Assembly (NCBI GenBank): GCA_026981635.1
Contig: JALSIF010000291.1
Span: 1-9,973 of the forward strand
Direction of reading: 5' to 3'
DNA length: 9,973 nucleotides
Source of the DNA: JALSIF01 sp026981635 [NCBI: bacterium]
Lineage (GTDB): Bacteria > 4484-113 > JALSIF01
Below are positions 2,621-9,973 of the stretch, piece by piece. Positions within the stretch are counted from its first letter, which is position 1. Every line of letters starts with the position of its first letter. The notes under the pieces were generated by a model. The model had not been told where the DNA came from. It saw only the letters and a program-made list of their open reading frames with translations, and made no database searches. A program made the translations under genes and the position numbers.

Positions 2621-3868
2621 ATGAAAACCTTCATCTATACAGCCAGGGACCCGCAGGGCAAGCTCATCCGCCAGACGGTGCAGGCTGACAACCCCAACAC
2701 GGTGGTTGAGGCCCTGCGCAAGGAGGGCTTCTTCGTCGTCTCCATCCGCGAGCGGCGCCGGCCGTTTAACCCCTTCATCCTCTGGGAGCGCCTGTGGCGC
2801 ATCGGGCTTAAGCAGCTAACCATCTTCAGCCGGCAGTTTTCTCTGCTGCTCAACGCCGGCCTCACCCTGTCGGAGGCGCTGGACACCATTGAGGAGCAGA
2901 CCCCGAGTGGCCACTTCCAGGAGATCATCCACCAGGTAAAGATTGACATCCAGGAGGGGATGACCCTCACCCAGGCCATGAAGCGCCACCGCAAGGCCTT
3001 TTCCGACTTCTTCGTCTCCATGGTCCACGCCGGTGAGATTGGTGGTGCGCTGGACATCATCCTGGAGCGGGTGGCGGTCTTCTACGAGAAGGAGCTTGAG
3101 CTCCGGCGCAAGGTGATCAGCGCCCTGGTCTATCCGGCGGTGGTGGTCTCCTTCGCCTTCATCATCACCATGTTCATGCTGGTCTACATCGTGCCCCAGT
3201 TTGCCGCCTTCTATGAGGAGTTCTCCGAGGGAGAGGCCAGGCTGCCTGAGCTTACCCAGCGGCTGCTTGACCTTTCAACCTGGATGCTCACCCCCTTCAT
3301 GAACATCCCCTGGCTGCCCAACTGGCTGGCGGTGATCATCGGGATGGTCCTCTTCCTGATCATCTTCTGGAAGTTCAGGAACTCCCACTGGGGCCACATC
3401 ATCTTTGACCCCATCGTGCTCCGCATCCCCATCTTTGGTCCCCTCAACCGGAAGGTGGCAATCACCCGCTTCACCCGCACCTTCGGCACCCTGAACCAGT
3501 CGGGCGTGCCCATTCTTGAGGCGCTGGAGGTGGCCAAGCAGACGGCCAACAACTATGTGATTCGGCGGGCCATTGACTACACGGCCGACCGCATCCGGGA
3601 GGGGGAGACCATCCACGGTCCCATGAAGCGCACCCGCGTCTTCCCGCCCATCGTCACCAACCTGATTTCGGTGGGCGAGGAGGCGGGGAACCTGGAGGAG
3701 ATCCTGTTTAAGCTCTCCGACTACTACGACGCGGAGATTGATGCCACGGTGAGGGCGCTGGCCAGTATCATTGAGCCCATCCTCATCGTCATCATCGGAG
3801 GCGTGGTGGGAACCATCGTAATCGCCCTCTACCTTCCCATCTTCAACCTGGTTAACGTAATACGCTAG
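2621..3868 (+). CDS. pilC: Type IV pilus inner-membrane platform protein PilC (GspF family)
   Basis: PilC is the polytopic platform that couples PilB and PilT to pilin subunits in the inner membrane. At 415 residues it has the family's normal length. It carries two T2SSF domains, at about 66-191 and 278-403, each with the typical helical pattern. The paired motifs GEIGGALDIIL (138-148) and GEEAGNLEEIL (352-362) mark the two halves. Hydrophobic segments lie at about 167-191, 235-250 and 383-408. The N-terminal portion (FIYTARDPQGKLIRQTVQAD) is typical of PilC. The ATG at 2621 has the ribosome binding site AAGGGGTGA about 7 bases upstream. No terminator is visible after the stop codon. Confidence 0.96.
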   Translation: MKTFIYTARDPQGKLIRQTVQADNPNTVVEALRKEGFFVVSIRERRRPFNPFILWERLWRIGLKQLTIFSRQFSLLLNAGLTLSEALDTIEEQTPSGHFQEIIHQVKIDIQEGMTLTQAMKRHRKAFSDFFVSMVHAGEIGGALDIILERVAVFYEKELELRRKVISALVYPAVVVSFAFIITMFMLVYIVPQFAAFYEEFSEGEARLPELTQRLLDLSTWMLTPFMNIPWLPNWLAVIIGMVLFLIIFWKFRNSHWGHIIFDPIVLRIPIFGPLNRKVAITRFTRTFGTLNQSGVPILEALEVAKQTANNYVIRRAIDYTADRIREGETIHGPMKRTRVFPPIVTNLISVGEEAGNLEEILFKLSDYYDAEIDATVRALASIIEPILIVIIGGVVGTIVIALYLPIFNLVNVIR

Positions 3869-3982
3869 ACAAGTTTCCGGGGCCCAAACTACCACTTCCC
3901 ATCTTGAATCCTCTCAACTGCTCCCACTCGCCCAGCGCTTGAAACCCTCTGAAAACTCCGCCAGGAAGAGGCTCCTTAGGTA

Positions 3983-4010
3983 TTGAATATTTTTCGAATG
4001 TGGGTATAAT
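3983..4010 (+). promoter_or_regulatory. Sigma70-type promoter for the first prepilin gene
   Basis: TTGAAT (3983-3988), a 16-base spacer and a perfect TATAAT (4005-4010) give a good housekeeping promoter in an AT-rich patch within GC-rich DNA. Transcription would start near 4017 and leave a leader of about 110 bases. The rest of the pilC-prepilin gap upstream of it (3869-3982) shows only a short AGTTT/AAACT inverted repeat at 3872-3890 and nothing else I can support. A strong dedicated promoter fits the high demand for a major pilin. Confidence 0.7.
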
Positions 4011-4030
4011 GGCGGCGGGATGAGAGCAGG

Positions 4031-4053
4031 AGCCGCGTCCGCAGCTAGCGGCT
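4031..4053 (+). promoter_or_regulatory. Leader hairpin with two alternative stems upstream of the first prepilin
   Basis: In the long 5' leader, AGCCGC (4031-4036) is complementary to GCGGCT (4048-4053). CCGC at 4039-4042 competes for GCGG at 4048-4051 with an AGCTA loop. The two pairings exclude each other. I recognise no known riboswitch consensus; in particular the conserved cores of the cyclic-di-GMP riboswitches are absent. It may simply stabilise the pilin mRNA. Confidence 0.3.
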
Positions 4054-4129
4054 AAAGGGGGTGAGAAGCAGGCTCTGCCGTGGCTCTGTGATCGTCCCGA
4101 CAAATCCAAAAAAGAGGGGTGACACGACT

Positions 4130-5299
4130 ATGAGGCGAGGATTTACGCTCATTGAGCTGCTCGTCGTCATCGTGATCATCGGTATCCTCGCGGCCATCGC
4201 CCTTCCCAACTACATCAAGGTGAAGGACAAGGCCAAGGAGGCCGAGGTCAAGGCCAACATGCACAACATCCAGCTCACCGTTGAGCGGTTCGGGGTGGAC
4301 AACGACGGAACCTACCCGCAGTACCTGATCGGTGGTGACTCGAGGCTGGCCGACATCTCCCAGAACGCCGTTGGGCAGGAGAGCATCGGCATCTTCACTA
4401 ACATTCGGCCGGCCCAGAACACCATCGCCTACTCCGACGCTCTGCTGAGGGGTGGGTACACCTCCAGCTACCCGAAGAACCCCTTCGCCAAGAACGGTAC
4501 TGCCATCTACCAGTACCAGGTTGACGCCAACGACCGCCTGCGCATCAACGCCGAGGGAAGTGTCGGCACGCCGGAGACCAACGGCAACCCGCTGGGCCTC
4601 CGCTTCGGTGCGGACGGCACCATCATGGGTCAGGTGCTGGCTGACTTCCGCTTCCCCTTCTTCAAGTTCCGCGACCCCGCCACCGGCAACGTGAGCGCGG
4701 TCAGAAGCTACGCCTGGATCGGGTTTGAGATGTACGACCTGTGGCTGGGCAACCAGCCGCGCGTGGTCTACCTGCCGGGTGAGTTCTTCTACAAGAGCGC
4801 TGGACCCATCCTGGCTACCCGTACCCGGGTGCAGCAGAGCGAGCGGCAGCCCATCCAGCCGGTGGAGATTGACCAGTACATCATGGGCGGCTACGGCTCG
4901 GTGCGCACCAAGGGCTTTGAGATCCTGGGCCGTGAGTTCCCCATCATCGTGCGGACTCAGCTGTTTACCCAGAACAACTCTGAGGGCAGCGGCCTGTTTG
5001 CTCTGAGCGACACGCCCACCGAGACCATTGAGAAGCCGGTCAAGGGGCCCAACGCTCCGGGTGCCGGTCCTGGCGGTGGCGGCATCGGTGGTCCCGGCTC
5101 CGCACTGGGCCCGGGCGAGGCCGCCCTGTGGCACTGGACCCGTTCGCTGGACAGCGACGACCGGCTCGGTTCGCCCTACCGTCCGCGTGGTCCGGGTGAG
5201 GTTGACCTGCTGGCCTACGGCAACCCCGACCTGGGTCTGCGTGACGGCATCGTCATCGCGCTCAACGCTGGTGAGGACGTCAAGATCCGCAACCAGTAG
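4130..5299 (+). CDS. Large type IV prepilin (major-pilin candidate), 389 aa
   Basis: The protein starts with a textbook class III signal, MRRG^FTLIELLVVIVIIGILAAIALP. The prepilin peptidase would cut after Gly4, and Glu5 of the mature protein is present. The helix continues through KDKAKEAEVKANMHNIQL, and the C-terminal body is a long globular region. I chose ATG 4130 because it gives the short basic leader and has GAGGGGTGA upstream. A GTG at 4061 would add 23 residues and destroy a normal leader. At 389 residues it is more than twice the size of usual pilins (about 130-170). Residues 306-330 form a Gly/Pro-rich linker (GPNAPGAGPGGGGIGG...) before a C-terminal segment. There are no cysteines, hence no pilin disulfide loop. 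The dedicated promoter upstream and terminator downstream suggest an abundant product. Whether it is the major pilin or a minor pseudopilin is inferred. Confidence 0.93.
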   Translation: MRRGFTLIELLVVIVIIGILAAIALPNYIKVKDKAKEAEVKANMHNIQLTVERFGVDNDGTYPQYLIGGDSRLADISQNAVGQESIGIFTNIRPAQNTIAYSDALLRGGYTSSYPKNPFAKNGTAIYQYQVDANDRLRINAEGSVGTPETNGNPLGLRFGADGTIMGQVLADFRFPFFKFRDPATGNVSAVRSYAWIGFEMYDLWLGNQPRVVYLPGEFFYKSAGPILATRTRVQQSERQPIQPVEIDQYIMGGYGSVRTKGFEILGREFPIIVRTQLFTQNNSEGSGLFALSDTPTETIEKPVKGPNAPGAGPGGGGIGGPGSALGPGEAALWHWTRSLDSDDRLGSPYRPRGPGEVDLLAYGNPDLGLRDGIVIALNAGEDVKIRNQ

Positions 5300-5324
5300 G
5301 AGCCGAGCAGACGACGAGCACCAC

Positions 5325-5357
5325 GGGGGGCTCCCCTGCGGGGGAGCCCCCTCTCTT
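5325..5357 (+). terminator. Intrinsic terminator after the first prepilin
   Basis: GGGGGCTCCCC (5326-5336) pairs perfectly over 11 bp with GGGGAGCCCCC (5341-5351) around a TGCG loop, with one further G-T pair. It is followed by TCTCTTT, a short imperfect T tract. It sits 26 bases after the prepilin stop. The very stable stem makes at least partial termination likely, which would lower expression of the second prepilin. Confidence 0.8.
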
Positions 5358-5415
5358 TCACCTGGGAGGCTACCCTCACTCCCCATGGGCTAGGCTAGAC
5401 TGGTGGGAGGATGCC

Positions 5416-5422
5416 AGAGGGA
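5416..5422 (+). promoter_or_regulatory. Ribosome binding site that decides the second prepilin start
   Basis: AGAGGGA lies 3-5 bases before ATG 5426. The earlier ATG at 5411 touches GGGAGG (5405-5410) with no spacer, which is too close for normal initiation. This favours 5426, or 5429 immediately after it. Confidence 0.4.
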
Positions 5423-5425
5423 CTA

Positions 5426-6394
5426 ATGATGGGCAGAGCAGGTTTCTCCAGGCTTGAGCTCGCGGTGGCGGCGTCTCTGATTCTCCTTCTTGGTGGAGTT
5501 GCCCTGCCTACGGTAAGCGCTACCGACCGCTATGCCCAGAAGCAGGAACTGATCACCAAGGGGGCCGAGATCCAGGACGCCATTGAGCGCTATTATCTGG
5601 ACCACAAGCCGGGATTTCCAACCTATCTCATCGGGGGGGAGGCGGCGGTGGATGAGAGGGGAAATCCCCGCCCGGAGACGGCCTCCGACCCGCTGATCAG
5701 GGGGGGCTACCTGGTGCGCTACCCCAAAAACCCCTTCCTGAATCAGGGGAAGGGCTTTCTCTACTGCCAGAAGCTTAAGGACGACCCGCTTAGGGAGGGG
5801 GATGTTGGAAGCGAGGGGAGCTATCCCCGCGGGCTCAGGTTTGGCAGGAGCGGCATGCTGATGGGCCAGGTGCTGGCCGAGCACCGCTACCCAAGCTTTC
5901 TGGTTGAGATAGACGGGGAGAGCAAAAAGCTAAGCTCCTTTGCCAAGTTCAGCTATGAGCAGTTTGACACCTGGGAGGGAGAGCGGGGGCGTAACCGGGA
6001 GGGGTTTTATGTGGGCAGCTTTGCCTACAAGTCGGGGGGGCCGGCGGCAAAGATCGTCTCTCGCCTCAGGCAAAACCCGCGGGTGCCCCTGGGGCCCATC
6101 CAGCCCGAGCACTATATCCTACTGATCTTTGGCTACCTTGATGACGAGGGTTCAGACCTGCTGGGTCGTGAGCCAACCATCGGTGAGGGGGGACCGCCAA
6201 GCTGGACCCGGGGCTCCATGACCAAGCCGGAGGGATCGCCCTTCCTGAAATGGGATGAACTGGGTGACTTCTTTGGTTGGCCCAACCCCAACGGCATCTC
6301 TGACGGGGTTATCTGGATGGCCTACGGGATGGATGAGGAGCGCAACCGCCGTTGGCGGGAGAAGATGAGGGAAAAGCTGTGGGAGGATTATTAG
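5426..6394 (+). CDS. Divergent large prepilin-like protein, paralogue of the preceding gene
   Basis: The N-terminus MMGRAG^FSRLELAVAASLILLLGGVALP keeps the essentials of a class III signal: Gly at -1, Phe at +1, Glu at +5 and a hydrophobic helix. It departs from the FTLIELLVVI consensus. The body (322 residues from 5426) shares ordered motifs with the preceding prepilin: YPxYLIGG, RGGY..xYPKNPF, GLRFGxxGxxMGQVLA, a YKSxGP block, LLGRE/ILGRE and a C-terminal DGVI/DGIV. It lacks the Gly-rich linker and ends in a charged helix (NRRWREKMREKLWEDY). It has a single cysteine (114). A start at 5411 would add MPEGL; I prefer 5426 on ribosome-binding-site spacing. It may be a minor pilin, a pilus-tip subunit or a specialised second pilin. 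It probably depends on read-through of the terminator or on a weak promoter around 5391-5401. Confidence 0.85.
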   Translation: MMGRAGFSRLELAVAASLILLLGGVALPTVSATDRYAQKQELITKGAEIQDAIERYYLDHKPGFPTYLIGGEAAVDERGNPRPETASDPLIRGGYLVRYPKNPFLNQGKGFLYCQKLKDDPLREGDVGSEGSYPRGLRFGRSGMLMGQVLAEHRYPSFLVEIDGESKKLSSFAKFSYEQFDTWEGERGRNREGFYVGSFAYKSGGPAAKIVSRLRQNPRVPLGPIQPEHYILLIFGYLDDEGSDLLGREPTIGEGGPPSWTRGSMTKPEGSPFLKWDELGDFFGWPNPNGISDGVIWMAYGMDEERNRRWREKMREKLWEDY

Positions 6395-6404
6395 AACTCA
6401 GGGG

Positions 6405-6421
6405 TGAACAAAGTCTGTTCA
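6405..6421 (+). promoter_or_regulatory. Inverted repeat TGAACA-N5-TGTTCA upstream of phnC (candidate operator)
   Basis: Two perfect 6-base arms separated by AAGTC lie in the 52-base gap before phnC, around the place of the -35 box of the proposed promoter. It is followed by a 10-base palindrome AGCCTAGGCT (6421-6430). No T run follows, so it is not a clear terminator for the prepilin. A dimeric regulator site is plausible, and I cannot name the regulator. Confidence 0.35.
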
Positions 6422-6434
6422 GCCTAGGCTTGCT

Positions 6435-6440
6435 TAAAAT
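6435..6440 (+). promoter_or_regulatory. -10-like box giving a probable leaderless phnC mRNA
   Basis: TAAAAT ends 6 bases before the GTG start of phnC, which would place the transcription start at or very near the G of GTG. There is no Shine-Dalgarno sequence before the GTG and no good -35 box. Both fit a leaderless gene, as is common in Deinococcus-Thermus and Actinobacteria. Confidence 0.4.
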
Positions 6441-6446
6441 CCCAGC

Positions 6447-7211
6447 GTGTCAGTCCTGAAGCTTTCTGAGATCATCCATACCTTCCCCGATGGAACCACT
6501 GCCCTGCGGGGGGTTGACCTTTCAGTTGGGCCGGGGGAGGTGGTGGCCATTATCGGCCCCTCCGGAGCGGGCAAGTCCACCCTCCTTCGGGTGATCAACG
6601 GGCTGGTGATCCCCAGCTCGGGAGAGGTTGAGGTGCTGGGGGAGAGGCCGCGGGGAGAGCGGGCCTGGCGGCGAGTGAGGCGGCGCATCGGGATGGTCTT
6701 CCAGAGCTTTAACCTGATCCCCCACACCAGCGTGCTGATGAATGTCTTGGCAGGTGCCCTGGGCCGGATCCCCACCTGGCGCTCCCTGATAGTGGCCTTT
6801 ACCCGGGAGGAGCGGGAGGGGGCGATGGCCGCCCTGGAGAGAGTGGGCCTTGGGGACAAGGCCCACAAGCGGGTGGAGGAGCTTTCCGGGGGTGAGCGCC
6901 AGCGGGTGGCCCTGGCCCGGGTGCTCATGCAGGAACCGGAGATGGTGCTGGCCGACGAGCCGGTGAGCAACCTTGACCCGGTAATCGCCCGGAGCGTCCT
7001 TGACCACCTGGTTCGCATCTGCCGGGAACAGGGGATCACCACGGTGATGAACCTGCACGCGGTGGACCTGGCCAGAAGCTACGCAGGGCGCATCGTTGGA
7101 CTTAGGGATGGCAGGGTGGTATTTGAGGGAAGCCCCGCCGAGCTGGGGCAGGCGGAGCTTAGGGAGATCTACGGAGAGAGCTACCGGGAGGTGGGGGTTG
7201 GCCAGGGGTAA
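6447..7211 (+). CDS. phnC: Phosphonate-type ABC transporter ATP-binding protein PhnC
   Basis: PhnC is the cytoplasmic ATPase of an importer of the phosphonate/phosphite class. In 254 residues I see Walker A GPSGAGKST (37-45), Q-loop MVFQSFNLI (Q86), signature LSGGERQRVALARV (147-159), Walker B MVLADEP (166-172), D-loop SNLDP and H-loop His204. The stretch NVLAGALGRIPTWRSL (99-114) is characteristic of PhnC relatives and separates it from other ABC ATPases. The GTG at 6447 is the first possible start, since a stop codon (TAA, 6435-6437) lies in frame just upstream, and MSVLKLSEIIHTFPDGTTAL matches the family N-terminus. Its 3' end overlaps phnE by 14 bases. The real substrate (phosphonate, phosphite or another oxyanion) cannot be read from the ATPase. 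Confidence 0.93.
   Translation: MSVLKLSEIIHTFPDGTTALRGVDLSVGPGEVVAIIGPSGAGKSTLLRVINGLVIPSSGEVEVLGERPRGERAWRRVRRRIGMVFQSFNLIPHTSVLMNVLAGALGRIPTWRSLIVAFTREEREGAMAALERVGLGDKAHKRVEELSGGERQRVALARVLMQEPEMVLADEPVSNLDPVIARSVLDHLVRICREQGITTVMNLHAVDLARSYAGRIVGLRDGRVVFEGSPAELGQAELREIYGESYREVGVGQG
7186..7193 (+). promoter_or_regulatory. Ribosome binding site fixing a TTG start for phnE
   Basis: GGGAGGTG inside the 3' end of phnC lies 6 bases (measured from GGAGG) before TTG 7198. It is close to the ideal anti-16S match and is the strongest evidence for the TTG start. The earlier GTG at 7096 would add 34 residues that do not look like a PhnE N-terminus. Confidence 0.65.
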
Positions 7212-8022
7212 GCTGAGCACCGCCCTCAGCCGTGCACTGTGGCTGGGGCTAGGCGTCCTGGGGCTGGCCCTCATCTGGGCCTCGCTGGTGAGGACCGAGT
7301 TTCTCCCCCAGCGGGTGCTGGGGATCGGGCCCAAGGGGCAGGAGGCCTTCGTGAGGCTTATCTCCGCCCTCGCCCATCCTGATCTGACCGTCCTTCCGGA
7401 GATCGCCGACGGGATGTGGGAGTCCATCGCCATGGGCCTGATCGGCACCCTGCTGGCGGTGGTGGCCTCGCTTCTGACCTGCTTTCTTGCCGCGCGCAAC
7501 CTCACTTTTGGCACCCCCCAGGGGAAGGCGGTCTACCTGGTGGTGCGCACGGTCTACAACATCGTCCGCGCCTTCCCCCCCATCGTCTTGGCGATGCTCT
7601 TTGTGGTGCTGTGGGGGGTGGGACCGCTGGCCGGGGTGATGGCGCTGGCGGTCCACTCGGTTGGCATGCTGGGCAAACTCTTTGCCGAGGCCATTGAGGG
7701 GGCCGACCCGGGTCCCATTGAGGCGGTGCGTTCAACCGGGGCAAGCCCCATCCAGGTGGTGGCCTATGGGATCCTTCCCCAAGTGCTTCCCCACTTCGTG
7801 GCCTACTCGGTCTACCGGTGGGACATAAACATCCGCATGTCCATCGTGCTCGGCGTGGTGGGGGCGGGGGGGATCGGCAACCTGCTCCAGCAGTACTTCG
7901 GCTACCTCAAGTATGAGCAGATCTCCACCACCTTCCTGGCCATCCTGGTGGTGGTGACGGCACTGGACCTGGCCTCGGGCTGGATCCGGGAGCGGCTGGG
8001 GGTGGTGAGCGCCCCGGTCTAG
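7198..8022 (+). CDS. phnE: Phosphonate-type ABC transporter permease PhnE
   Basis: PhnE is the inner-membrane permease partner of PhnC and forms the transport channel as a homodimer. From the TTG start the protein has 274 residues, the usual family size. Hydrophobic segments lie at about 14-31, 74-98, 126-158, 213-230 and 245-262. The EAA loop that contacts the ATPase is clear at 164-193 (EAIEG...EAVRSTGASPIQVV), in the form typical of PhnE. The gene overlaps phnC by 14 bases, implying translational coupling. No periplasmic binding protein gene (phnD) and no C-P lyase or phosphite dehydrogenase gene follows; the next gene is on the other strand. The binding protein must lie elsewhere or be shared. 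Confidence 0.92.
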   Translation: MARGKLSTALSRALWLGLGVLGLALIWASLVRTEFLPQRVLGIGPKGQEAFVRLISALAHPDLTVLPEIADGMWESIAMGLIGTLLAVVASLLTCFLAARNLTFGTPQGKAVYLVVRTVYNIVRAFPPIVLAMLFVVLWGVGPLAGVMALAVHSVGMLGKLFAEAIEGADPGPIEAVRSTGASPIQVVAYGILPQVLPHFVAYSVYRWDINIRMSIVLGVVGAGGIGNLLQQYFGYLKYEQISTTFLAILVVVTALDLASGWIRERLGVVSAPV

Positions 8023-9176
8023 CCCTTGGGGGTGTGGGTGGGAACGCCCAGGGGATTGAGGATCACTATCGCCAGGTAGACCAGGTAGAGCAGACCGCCA
8101 ATCATCAGCAGGCGGGGATCCACGTCGCGGTTCTTGCGGATGTTTAGGTAGACGAGAAGGCCACCCAGCAGGGCCAGCAGAACCGAGACGGTCTCAAAGG
8201 ATCGGGGATCAAAGGTCCACTCGGTAAGGAGCATTCCAATGGCCACCGGGATGGTGGACTGGAAGACCATGGCGCCGCTCATGTTGCCCAGGGCGAGGGT
8301 GTCCTTGCCCTCCCTCACCCAGATAACTGAGTTGAACTTCTCAGGTAGTTCTGTGGCGACTGGGATGATAAGAAAGGAAAGAACTAAGGGGCTGATTCCG
8401 AGTTGCTGACTTAGGTCTGTAATAACCCCTACGATTAGATATGCCCCTGCTAGAATCATACCCAGAGCGAAGATAAGCTGTAGAATGATGTAGCGGCGAC
8501 GAGGCACCCCTTTATCCAACAAGATATCCCAGCCCTGTTTCAGAGCGGGGCAAATTCGGTAAACAAGAGAGACAAAATGTAGTTGATCTAAGCCCTCTTG
8601 TTCTGTATGAATTCTACCAGACTTGACTATTCTTCTTACATAGATTACATACGCAAACACAAGAAGAATTGCTAGGACAATTTTGATTATATGTAATATT
8701 GCAGACATCTGCTGAGGACTGTTAGAATACTGTGTTAGATACCAGCTGGCAAGACCAGCAATTACCCCTAGTGGATAAGTAATGAGGAAAAACCTAAAAT
8801 CTTTTTCAGCCACAGTTATATCCACGTGAAAAGGCCGAGACCTACCTAAAGCAAGGGAAATAAAAAATACTGAGCCCACAACAAAAACTCCCAATGTCGC
8901 TAGCATAAAAGGAGCTCCCAAGATAGCCCCAATTCCGATGTGTTCAGCGGCCTGATGGGCTTCATCAGTTCCCATCAAGGAAATGACGATGGCCACTATG
9001 GTTATCAGGGTCTCGGGAAGCGCTGTCCCTACCGCTGCCAAGACACTGCCCACTGCCCCGGTGGAGAGGTTTAGGCGGCTGCCCAACCACTCAACCGCGT
9101 TGGTAAAGACCTCAGCGGCCAACACAAGCAGGGCGAGGATGGCCACGAGCAGGGTGACGTCCAAGAAGATCTTCAT
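8019..9176 (-). CDS. Sodium/calcium-exchanger-type cation antiporter (CaCA superfamily)
   Basis: This is a polytopic inner-membrane antiporter, most likely exchanging Ca2+ for Na+ or H+. The 385 residues show about ten hydrophobic segments. Both alpha repeats that form the ion site are present: GSVLAAVGTALPE (43-55) in the first half, and PVATELPEKFNS (272-283) with GNMSGAMVFQST (297-308) in the second. The acidic residues E55 and E279 are kept. A hydrophilic loop at about 181-228 joins the halves. ATG 9176 is the only possible start, because a TAG lies in frame 7 codons upstream. The ribosome binding site is weak. The stop overlaps that of phnE in CTAG. The central part, 8341-8940 (residues about 79-279), has about 42% GC against about 60% or more on both sides, so the gene looks mosaic. 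Ion specificity is not evident from the sequence. Confidence 0.88.
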   Translation of the reverse strand: MKIFLDVTLLVAILALLVLAAEVFTNAVEWLGSRLNLSTGAVGSVLAAVGTALPETLITIVAIVISLMGTDEAHQAAEHIGIGAILGAPFMLATLGVFVVGSVFFISLALGRSRPFHVDITVAEKDFRFFLITYPLGVIAGLASWYLTQYSNSPQQMSAILHIIKIVLAILLVFAYVIYVRRIVKSGRIHTEQEGLDQLHFVSLVYRICPALKQGWDILLDKGVPRRRYIILQLIFALGMILAGAYLIVGVITDLSQQLGISPLVLSFLIIPVATELPEKFNSVIWVREGKDTLALGNMSGAMVFQSTIPVAIGMLLTEWTFDPRSFETVSVLLALLGGLLVYLNIRKNRDVDPRLLMIGGLLYLVYLAIVILNPLGVPTHTPKG

Positions 9177-9191
9177 GGGCTGGAAGCACCT

Positions 9192-9197
9192 ATTCTA
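9192..9197 (-). promoter_or_regulatory. Weak candidate -10 box for the exchanger gene
   Basis: On the - strand TAGAAT lies 15 bases before the ATG, which would leave a leader of only 8-9 bases. No good -35 box is found at the right distance (CCAGCT at 17 bases). The lack of a strong Shine-Dalgarno sequence is compatible with a near-leaderless message. Confidence 0.25.
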
Positions 9198-9250
9198 GAA
9201 CTCAGCCACCAAAGAGCTGGGCATATCATTGCTGAGCAGTATAGCTCTAC

Positions 9251-9279
9251 TTGACATAACTCCGCCTTGAATATACACT
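9251..9279 (+). promoter_or_regulatory. Sigma70-type promoter for the lipoprotein gene
   Basis: A perfect TTGACA (9251-9256), a 17-base spacer and TACACT (9274-9279, 4 of 6 matches to TATAAT) form a good promoter in the divergent intergenic region. Transcription would start near 9286 and leave a leader of about 25 bases with the strong ribosome binding site GGAGGTGA (9298-9305). Confidence 0.65.
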
Positions 9280-9310
9280 ACAGGCAACTTAATACCTGGA
9301 GGTGACAGCC

Positions 9311-9973
9311 ATGAGAGGGCTTTACACAGTTAGTGTTACGCTGATATTCGTCCTAATTGGTCTGGGCATGTTTTCTTGTGGCGCCGGGGGTGGAGACAGC
9401 ACTGTAACTCAGCCACCCACTACAGGAGCTCCACCCGCAGGCGATGATAATGCTGGCAGCCCGGGCAATCAGGATGGTGAGGGACAGGAGCAGCCTCCAT
9501 TGGGTGGTGATAATGGAGGTAGTGGAGGCCAGCCCGATGGAGACCAAACACAACCACCTTCTCAAAGTTATGGTTCCATCTCGGGATACATTTACAGGAC
9601 AATCTACCCTAGAGAAAGACCGGTTCAGGGAAGCCCGGCTGGGTTTGTGCCCTTGGAAGGGGCAGAGGTAAGGATTGGGGAGCTGAAGGCTACTACCGAC
9701 CAGCGGGGTTTCTTCCGGCTGGAAGGCGTTCCCACGGGAACCCACCAGCTCCAGGTGAGCAAGGCAGGCTATGACACCCTCACCAGGCAGGTGGTGGTCT
9801 CTGCCAACGTTGATACGACAGTCTTTCCCCAAGACAGCCCCAGCGGATACCTGGGAAGAAGTGATGGGGCTGACCTGGCAGTTAACTCCGACCCCAGTGG
9901 TGCGGCGGTGGTGATAGAGCAGATCGGCACTGGAGTCACTACTCCCCACACTTTCAGAGACCTGCCCCCGGGC
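9311..9973 (+). CDS. Surface lipoprotein with carboxypeptidase-regulatory-like and PEGA-like domains, 3' end missing
   Basis: The frame stays open from ATG 9311 to the right edge (221 codons seen). The ribosome binding site GGAGGTGA is 5 bases before the start. Residues 1-22 are a lipoprotein signal peptide ending in MFS^C, with Cys23 as the lipidated residue. Residues 24-86 are a low-complexity linker rich in Gly, Pro, Asp and Gln. Residues 88-171 (GSISGYIY...GAEVRIGELKATTDQRGFFRLEGVPTGTHQLQVSKAGYDT) match the carboxypeptidase regulatory-like beta-sandwich fold. From about 187 a PEGA-like repeat begins (LAVNSDPSGAAVVIE...TTPHTFRDLPPG). These domains usually occur in surface proteins that bind cell-wall components, carbohydrates or other proteins. 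No catalytic motif is visible in this part. Its role and any link to the pili are unknown. Confidence 0.88.
   Translation, partial: MRGLYTVSVTLIFVLIGLGMFSCGAGGGDSTVTQPPTTGAPPAGDDNAGSPGNQDGEGQEQPPLGGDNGGSGGQPDGDQTQPPSQSYGSISGYIYRTIYPRERPVQGSPAGFVPLEGAEVRIGELKATTDQRGFFRLEGVPTGTHQLQVSKAGYDTLTRQVVVSANVDTTVFPQDSPSGYLGRSDGADLAVNSDPSGAAVVIEQIGTGVTTPHTFRDLPPG

Follow-up and report, generated by a model that had tools for sequence, protein, structure and literature searches.

Two adjacent oversized prepilin genes with a common body and contrasting N-terminal helices beside pilB, pilT and pilC

As a rule, the helix of a pilin is conserved and the head is variable. Two neighbouring genes in the stretch of DNA analysed here (the window, 9,973 bases, an entire contig of a fragmented draft genome of 1.75 Mb in 317 contigs, 85% complete) encode prepilins, p1 and p2, that share a body and differ in the helix. 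We asked what this body is, and what a cell that makes a pilus might do with two such proteins. The simplest and most likely reading is that p1 is a major pilin and p2 an accessory one; the evidence for it, and for the alternatives, is set out below.

The gene pair and the pilus machinery

The genes of the window are arranged in the order pilB, pilT, pilC, p1, p2, phnC and phnE, followed by a Na/Ca exchanger on the opposite strand and a PEGA-domain protein. The first three encode a PilB/GspE-type assembly ATPase whose 5′ end is cut by the contig end (2-1306, +; Pfam T2SSE, 468.6 bits), a retraction ATPase assigned to the PilT type by gene order and length (1402-2559, +; T2SSE, 166.7 bits), and a PilC/GspF inner-membrane platform protein (2621-3868, +; T2SSF, 213.4 bits over two stretches). 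The two prepilin genes lie where the initial annotation had placed them, p1 at 4130-5299 (+; 389 aa) and p2 at 5411-6394 (+; 321-327 aa). It had also called both oversized, and this is fair, since passages of PMC4471445 give 140-170 aa for type IVa and 180-200 aa for type IVb prepilins. The p2 protein has 327 aa from the first ATG and 322 or 321 aa from the ATGs at 5426 and 5429, which are the likely starts, being better placed behind the AGAGG at 5416-5420. The phnC and phnE ORFs of a phosphonate transporter (6447-8022, +) overlap as listed, and no binding protein was found among the nine window proteins scanned with Pfam. Third-position G+C is 0.55 for the exchanger gene (8019-9176, -) and 0.54 for the PEGA-domain gene (9302-9973, +), compared with 0.74-0.87 for the other seven genes, and these two were possibly acquired from elsewhere.

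PilB, PilT, PilC, a prepilin peptidase, a secretin and PilM, the set expected of a type IVa pilus, are all encoded in the genome, and PilN gave a sub-threshold match (16.6 vs 22.8 bits). Since these machinery genes are present, the cell very likely builds a retractable type IVa-like pilus. The secretin, which carries long Gly-rich stretches, lies on another contig (C26, L122:986-6095, +) and is followed by a 670-residue PilM plus sub-threshold PilN protein. The order pilB-pilT-pilC-p1 recurs in three genomes (G006, G003 and G009) and pilC-p1 in two others (G007 and G008), so that in these five p1 again stands directly behind pilC; in G005 a p1-like gene begins after pilC and is cut off by the contig end. 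Together with its prepilin signal, this position marks p1 as the likely major pilin. In one relative, the gene directly 3′ of the p1-type gene (L065:6361-8658, -) codes for a protein of 766 residues that carries a SpoIVB-type S55 peptidase domain. In L066 and L067 the p1-type gene is likewise followed on the same strand by an ORF of comparable length, the domain having been checked in L065 only.

A candidate sigma-70-like promoter, TTGAAT-16-TATAAT, was found 5′ of p1 by consensus match (3983-4010, +); the scan of both strands of 3800-6500 returned 3 sites, against a mean of 0.5 in shuffled sequence. A GC-rich, terminator-like hairpin with a weak T tail separates p1 from p2 (5325-5352, +; -31.1 kcal/mol for a 50-base segment), and was not among the terminators listed by a terminator scan. 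Codon adaptation was 0.689 for p1, 0.543 for p2, 0.529-0.574 for three other pilins and 0.626-0.730 for seven ribosomal and elongation-factor genes. This weak evidence does not single out p1, because pilB, pilT and pilC score alike (0.662-0.698).

Body homology and the helix contrast

All six motifs reported by the initial annotation are present in both proteins and in the same order. Full-length p1 and p2 aligned with 35% identity over 270 columns (141 bits, E 3e-43). The claim of a shared body would fall without an alignment of the bodies themselves; with the first 45 residues removed from each, they aligned with 36% identity over 226 columns by BLASTP (120 bits), compared with 25.8 bits for the best of 1000 shuffled p2 bodies against the p1 body. 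The proposed origin by duplication thus stands as homology, but the evidence stops short of a recent tandem duplication, p2 being poorly placed in the body trees. There it forms a long branch (1.29-1.61 changes per column), paired in a 47-row tree with a paralogue of another genome that has no prepilin signal (support 84/82). In a 30-row tree p1, p2 and two such no-signal paralogues group together without resolved order (82/94). A clade of p1 and p2 is absent from the tree, and with an AU p of 0.342 it is neither found nor rejected.

The contrast in the helix was borne out. The p1 protein begins with the consensus helix, MRRG/FTLIELLVVIVIIGILAAIALP, and passes the type IV prepilin signal test (N_methyl, 33.8 bits vs a cut-off of 21.2). 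The corresponding stretch of p2 is GRAG/FSRLELAVAASLILLLGGVALP, and Pfam gave no match to p2 at E≤1, N_methyl included. Across p1 residues 5-26, 9/22 are identical in p2 and 22/22 in six p1 relatives; across residues 27-51 the figures are 4/25 and 21-23/25. Two more divergent relatives of the same class have 16/22 with 15/25, and 20/22 with 19/25. The 4/25 of p2 is the lowest among the 17 rows compared, five tandem no-signal paralogues reaching 10-12/25. Over the largest body segment, on the other hand, p2 is identical to p1 at 36/98 positions and the six relatives at 40-47 of 97 or 98; beyond residue 70, the body segments of these relatives are at most about half identical to p1. The N-terminal 50 residues of p2 have thus lost their usual conservation, while its body has diverged much less.

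A drifted helix is not a lost processing signature, since p2 retains Gly-1, Phe1, Glu5 and Pro22. Residue and hydropathy scans found a class III signal in p2 (G-1, F+1, E+5 and a hydrophobic helix), and to judge from these residues the protein still looks processable by prepilin peptidase. Arg at +3, as in p2, is unusual. We also considered a chimera in which a foreign N-terminus had been joined to a p1-type body, and rejected it, as N-terminal matches in relatives were by eye no better than that of p2 to p1. The N-terminal 63 residues of p2, counted from the ATG at 5429, matched in eight of nine relatives, at 21.7-27.8 bits and 30-35% identity, and all of these were other pilins.

The adjacency of the genes and the body common to both products would suit a pilus built from both proteins, with p2 as another structural subunit. 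Passages of PMC10628169 describe heteropolymeric filaments, and p1 and p2 would then resemble PilE1/PilE2 of Streptococcus sanguinis or the archaellum of Methanocaldococcus villosus. A core subunit is, however, expected to keep the core helix, of which p2 has only 9/22, and codon usage and the hairpin hint that p2 is expressed less than p1. We regard such a heteropolymer as improbable.

Compared with the family consensus, the p2 helix has 13 mismatches in 22 positions, as does the helix of the fourth pilin in a cluster on contig C181, so that drift of this degree occurs in another pilin of the same cell. Minor pilins of tip complexes, the cap excepted, keep Glu5. Both points favour a place for p2 in a tip complex, which the initial annotation had suggested along with the cap. 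Against it, C181 carries a separate set of its own, in which the four pilins are followed by a Glu5-less pilin-like protein without a Pfam match ('K-like' in our labelling), and p2 has the Glu5 that the cap lacks. The apex subunit described in passages of PMC10191384 and PMC10628169 has no Glu5, and this absence, the mark of a GspK/PilK-type cap, was not found in p2. With Glu5 in p2 and a Glu5-less candidate on C181, p2 is, on its sequence, unlikely to be the cap. It may sit elsewhere in a tip complex, although we give little weight to a tip-complex role as a whole.

The body as a probable enlarged pilin head

Searches of Pfam and NCBIfam with 12 family bodies, p1 and p2 among them, returned no credible match. 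A PHROGs search with the p1 and p2 bodies gave no match, and among the records listed by literature searches there was nothing on a family with this type of body. When the p2 body alone was compared with three solved GspG heads (4lw9, 3fu1 and 3gn9), residues 42-148 of the 327-aa reading (5534-5854, +) aligned by phmmer with E values of 1.2e-4 to 7.5e-4, 'FPT...RGGYLVRYPKNPF' in p2 standing against 'YPT...GGYIKRLPKDPW' in GspG. Beyond this GspG-like first third, the p2 body matched no Pfam or NCBIfam family. The link to GspG depends on p2, because the p1 alignment to GspG was confined to the N-terminal 64 residues (3-64) and a profile of the 12 bodies (A2) did not match GspG. The curated whole-protein cut-off of the GspG family TIGR01710, 88.85 bits, was not reached by p1 (51 bits) or p2 (22.2 bits). 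In p1, a GspG-like pilin domain has probably grown to about 330 residues to form the head. Two other sets of matches were judged to be chance: the phage protein 8jou, the sole body-profile match in the PDB (E 0.0088), and matches of family proteins to GMP reductase.

AlphaFold models of moderate confidence (pLDDT 75.6 and pTM 0.74 for p2; 67.4 and 0.70 for p1) showed one long helix with strands after it in both proteins. A Foldseek search of the PDB with both models gave nothing at E≤0.001. Among the candidates re-examined with Z≥2, type IV pilins made up 6/7 for p2 and 8/9 for p1, weak matches with Z of at most 4.7. Structure prediction thus returned the expected order of helix and strands and mostly type IV pilin matches, but no fold match at that threshold, and the models are consistent with an enlarged pilin head, short of proof.

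The major pseudopilin of type II secretion, GspG/EpsG (TIGR01710, PF08334), is like p1 and p2 in having a prepilin signature and a head with 'YPT...GGY..R.PKDPWG', the counterpart of which in the family is 'YPxYLIGG...RGGY..YPKNPF'. Unlike GspG, p1 and p2 score far under its cut-off, the remaining 180-270 residues match nothing, and the genes belong to a PilB/T/C-type operon. With the type IVa major pilins (PilA/PilE) they share the helix, the signature, PilB/T/C, secretin, PilM and prepilin peptidase, as well as most of their few, weak structural matches. At 389 aa, however, p1 far exceeds the type IVa range cited above, and its body lies outside the Pfam and NCBIfam families. Minor-pilin helices can drift, and p2 is large and adjoins the major pilin, as do the modular minor pilins PilB and PilC of S. 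sanguinis. Unlike in modular pilins, the extra mass is common to p1 and p2 and reaches the C-terminal strand, and so, from the models and the alignment, the impression is of a head that has grown, not of a module grafted onto it. The suggestion that the body defines a pilin family of its own is favoured by the 12 bodies without a Pfam or NCBIfam match and by the restricted distribution described below. The resemblance of the first third of the p2 body to GspG, a known pseudopilin, counts in part against it.

Head and helix across the family

The body-only profile A2 (12 rows) matched 16/385 genomes, of which ten make up the full set from the window's class and six lie outside it. In the two groups outside this class every genome examined has a family body (4/4 and 3/3), and the total comes to 17/17 genomes of three phyla and 0/369 others, where absence means no A2 match and applies to the nearest genomes only. 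The phylum count follows the grouping of the genome set, and 'candidate' status is taken from record names. In G002, a member of the window's class, the match spans only 68/313 positions, and the member found there (L079) is distant and has several helices. Used as a single query, the p1 body matched 9/60 genomes, missing G002, and the whole p2 protein 11/60; the single p2 match outside the window's class (G024) covered residues 6-84 only and was discounted as a generic pilin helix. A contig scan with p2 alone as the query gave no match. Adjacent pairs of the exact p1-p2 kind were not seen in other genomes, but mixed neighbours do occur: in G385 (L152) a drifted copy, cut by the contig end, comes after two consensus copies, and in G118 (L150) a drifted copy lies upstream of two consensus copies.

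The fetched stretches, a sample of the matching places, held 86 distinct family ORFs, 81 with a readable N-terminus and 5 without. We classed N-termini as consensus (0-8 mismatches in the 22 helix positions), drifted (10-17; 13 in p2) or no-signal (a hydrophobic segment without G-1/E5), and counted 60, 8 (p2 included) and 13, respectively. No row has 9 mismatches, but the cut is a mere convenience, because the other pilins of the window's genome have 1-9 and 13 mismatches (18 in the Glu5-less one). The seven drifted rows besides p2 are all in the second group, and the no-signal rows occur in all three: 10 in the window's class, two in the second group (L154 and L161) and one in the third (L129). 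In L077, which was counted as no-signal, the signal returned by a loose scan was spurious (19 mismatches). In G007, five tandem pilin bodies stand behind ordinary membrane helices without a prepilin signature (contig C120, L072:10828-16061, -) and adjoin a consensus copy at 8727-9881. In G005, zinc-ribbon-like cysteine pairs and a Pro-rich linker were seen by eye ahead of the membrane helix and pilin body (contig C111, L075:10162-11355, -), and in G004 the helix keeps Glu5 and Pro in register, with Tyr replacing Gly-1 (contig C28, L074:6186-7124, -). The L075 protein and one from L072 (11903-13051) have a Gly near position -1 and no Glu5, and may undergo GspK-like cleavage.

A body-only tree of 65 rows gave 10 changes away from the consensus helix, at least 6 of them forced by starred branches. 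Drift accounted for 5 changes, all forced, and signal loss for 7, at least 3 forced. This tree was built by a quick method with SH-aLRT only, from 65 of the 86 ORFs; rows that were cut short, scored <40 bits or had no placed domain start were omitted, the drifted L150 copy among them. The N-terminus labels are clustered on it (10 changes vs a shuffled mean of 17.2). A careful 47-row tree agreed on signal loss (7 changes, at least 3 forced), and the 30-row tree gave 4 changes, at least 2 forced. A single origin of the ten no-signal rows of the window's class was not rejected on the 30-row tree (AU p 0.142), and we therefore drew only on those changes that starred branches make necessary, together with the presence of the state in all three groups. 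As far as sequences can tell, the switch away from the consensus helix is recurrent on the family tree. We infer that its direction was loss of the consensus helix or signal, since the change counts cannot separate gain from loss.

Genes of each type were then matched between the related genomes G385 and G381 by the 65-row tree. Body identity was 224/319 and 160/245 for two consensus pairs, 158/247 for a drifted pair and 171/295 for a no-signal pair, and helix identity was 26/26, 26/26, 10/26 and 9/25, respectively. In all four bodies, differences that alter the amino acid were much rarer than silent ones (pN 0.19-0.28, pS 0.67-0.79), the silent sites being close to saturation; the no-signal body had pN 0.28 and pS 0.75. 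The drifted and no-signal helices, over 25-26 codons, gave pN of 0.34 and 0.47 and pS of 0.65 and 1.01, and by these measures are relaxed rather than neutral. Unlike in p2, the 29 residues after the helix are fairly well kept (22/29 in the drifted and 20/29 in the no-signal pair). A second drifted pair, perhaps not orthologous, was identical at 153/286 body positions and 2/26 helix positions. This comparison indicates that the head is selected in every type and that the helix is tightly held only in the consensus type.

The same may extend to p2, a gene without a matched partner, whose body appears constrained because, of 61 positions that do not vary among 11 other family bodies, p2 has the common residue at 49. 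This number, the intact 327-codon frame and the retained signature residues all speak against p2 being a decaying duplicate of p1. Its long branch, a codon adaptation below that of p1 and the fact that no p2 orthologue was seen in the genomes searched are what decay would predict, yet we consider it very improbable.

Proposed roles of the two proteins and of the head

It is less unlikely that p2 is a membrane-anchored, non-polymerising pilin head, facing the periplasm and, for example, binding p1 heads during assembly or retraction, with its prepilin signature as a remnant. In the sample, 13/81 relatives carry the same body on a membrane helix without the signature, the five tandem G007 genes and L075 among them; the no-signal gene kept in G385 and G381 has a constrained body; and p2 is the least p1-like of all rows compared at residues 27-51. 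The joint retention of G-1, F1, E5 and P22, needless in a protein that does not polymerise, argues the other way.

Our preferred reading, to which we assign a probability of about 0.5, is that the PilB/T/C pilus has p1 as its major pilin, and p2 as an accessory subunit with the same head, a freed helix and a function exerted through its body. The homology, the signature residues kept, the drift of the helix, the conserved body, the genes around the pair and the spread of the family in the genomes searched were observed directly; what we infer of cleavage, stoichiometry, incorporation and body function is as follows. The p1 protein would be the main subunit of a retractable type IVa-like pilus assembled by the adjacent PilB, PilT and PilC, and p2 an accessory (minor) pilin carrying the p1-type head. 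Prepilin peptidase would cut p2 at Gly-1 and Glu5 would serve docking, while the p2 helix would no longer be constrained to a sequence that packs in the fibre core. The protein might enter the fibre rarely, or stay behind in the membrane with a head still compatible with the fibre, and would act through its body in either case. The 4/25 of p2 at residues 27-51, where the drifted pair keeps 22/29, counts against an accessory subunit and would fit a protein outside the fibre altogether.

What goes beyond the ordinary is found outside the window, in three phyla where this head is met again behind helices that have drifted or are ordinary membrane helices. We put forward, tentatively and as somewhat less probable than not, that in these three candidate phyla the enlarged GspG-like head is a general membrane or surface module that was repeatedly copied and freed from the fibre helix, first through drift with the cleavage signature retained, as in p2, and later through substitution of ordinary membrane helices, and that works outside any pilus. 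The family offers a natural comparison, since within the same two genomes the heads evolve at similar rates while the helix does not vary at all in some matched genes and varies much more freely in others. Such a comparison separates the demands of fibre packing from the function of the head, and makes the idea of a pilin head that works without polymerising a testable one.
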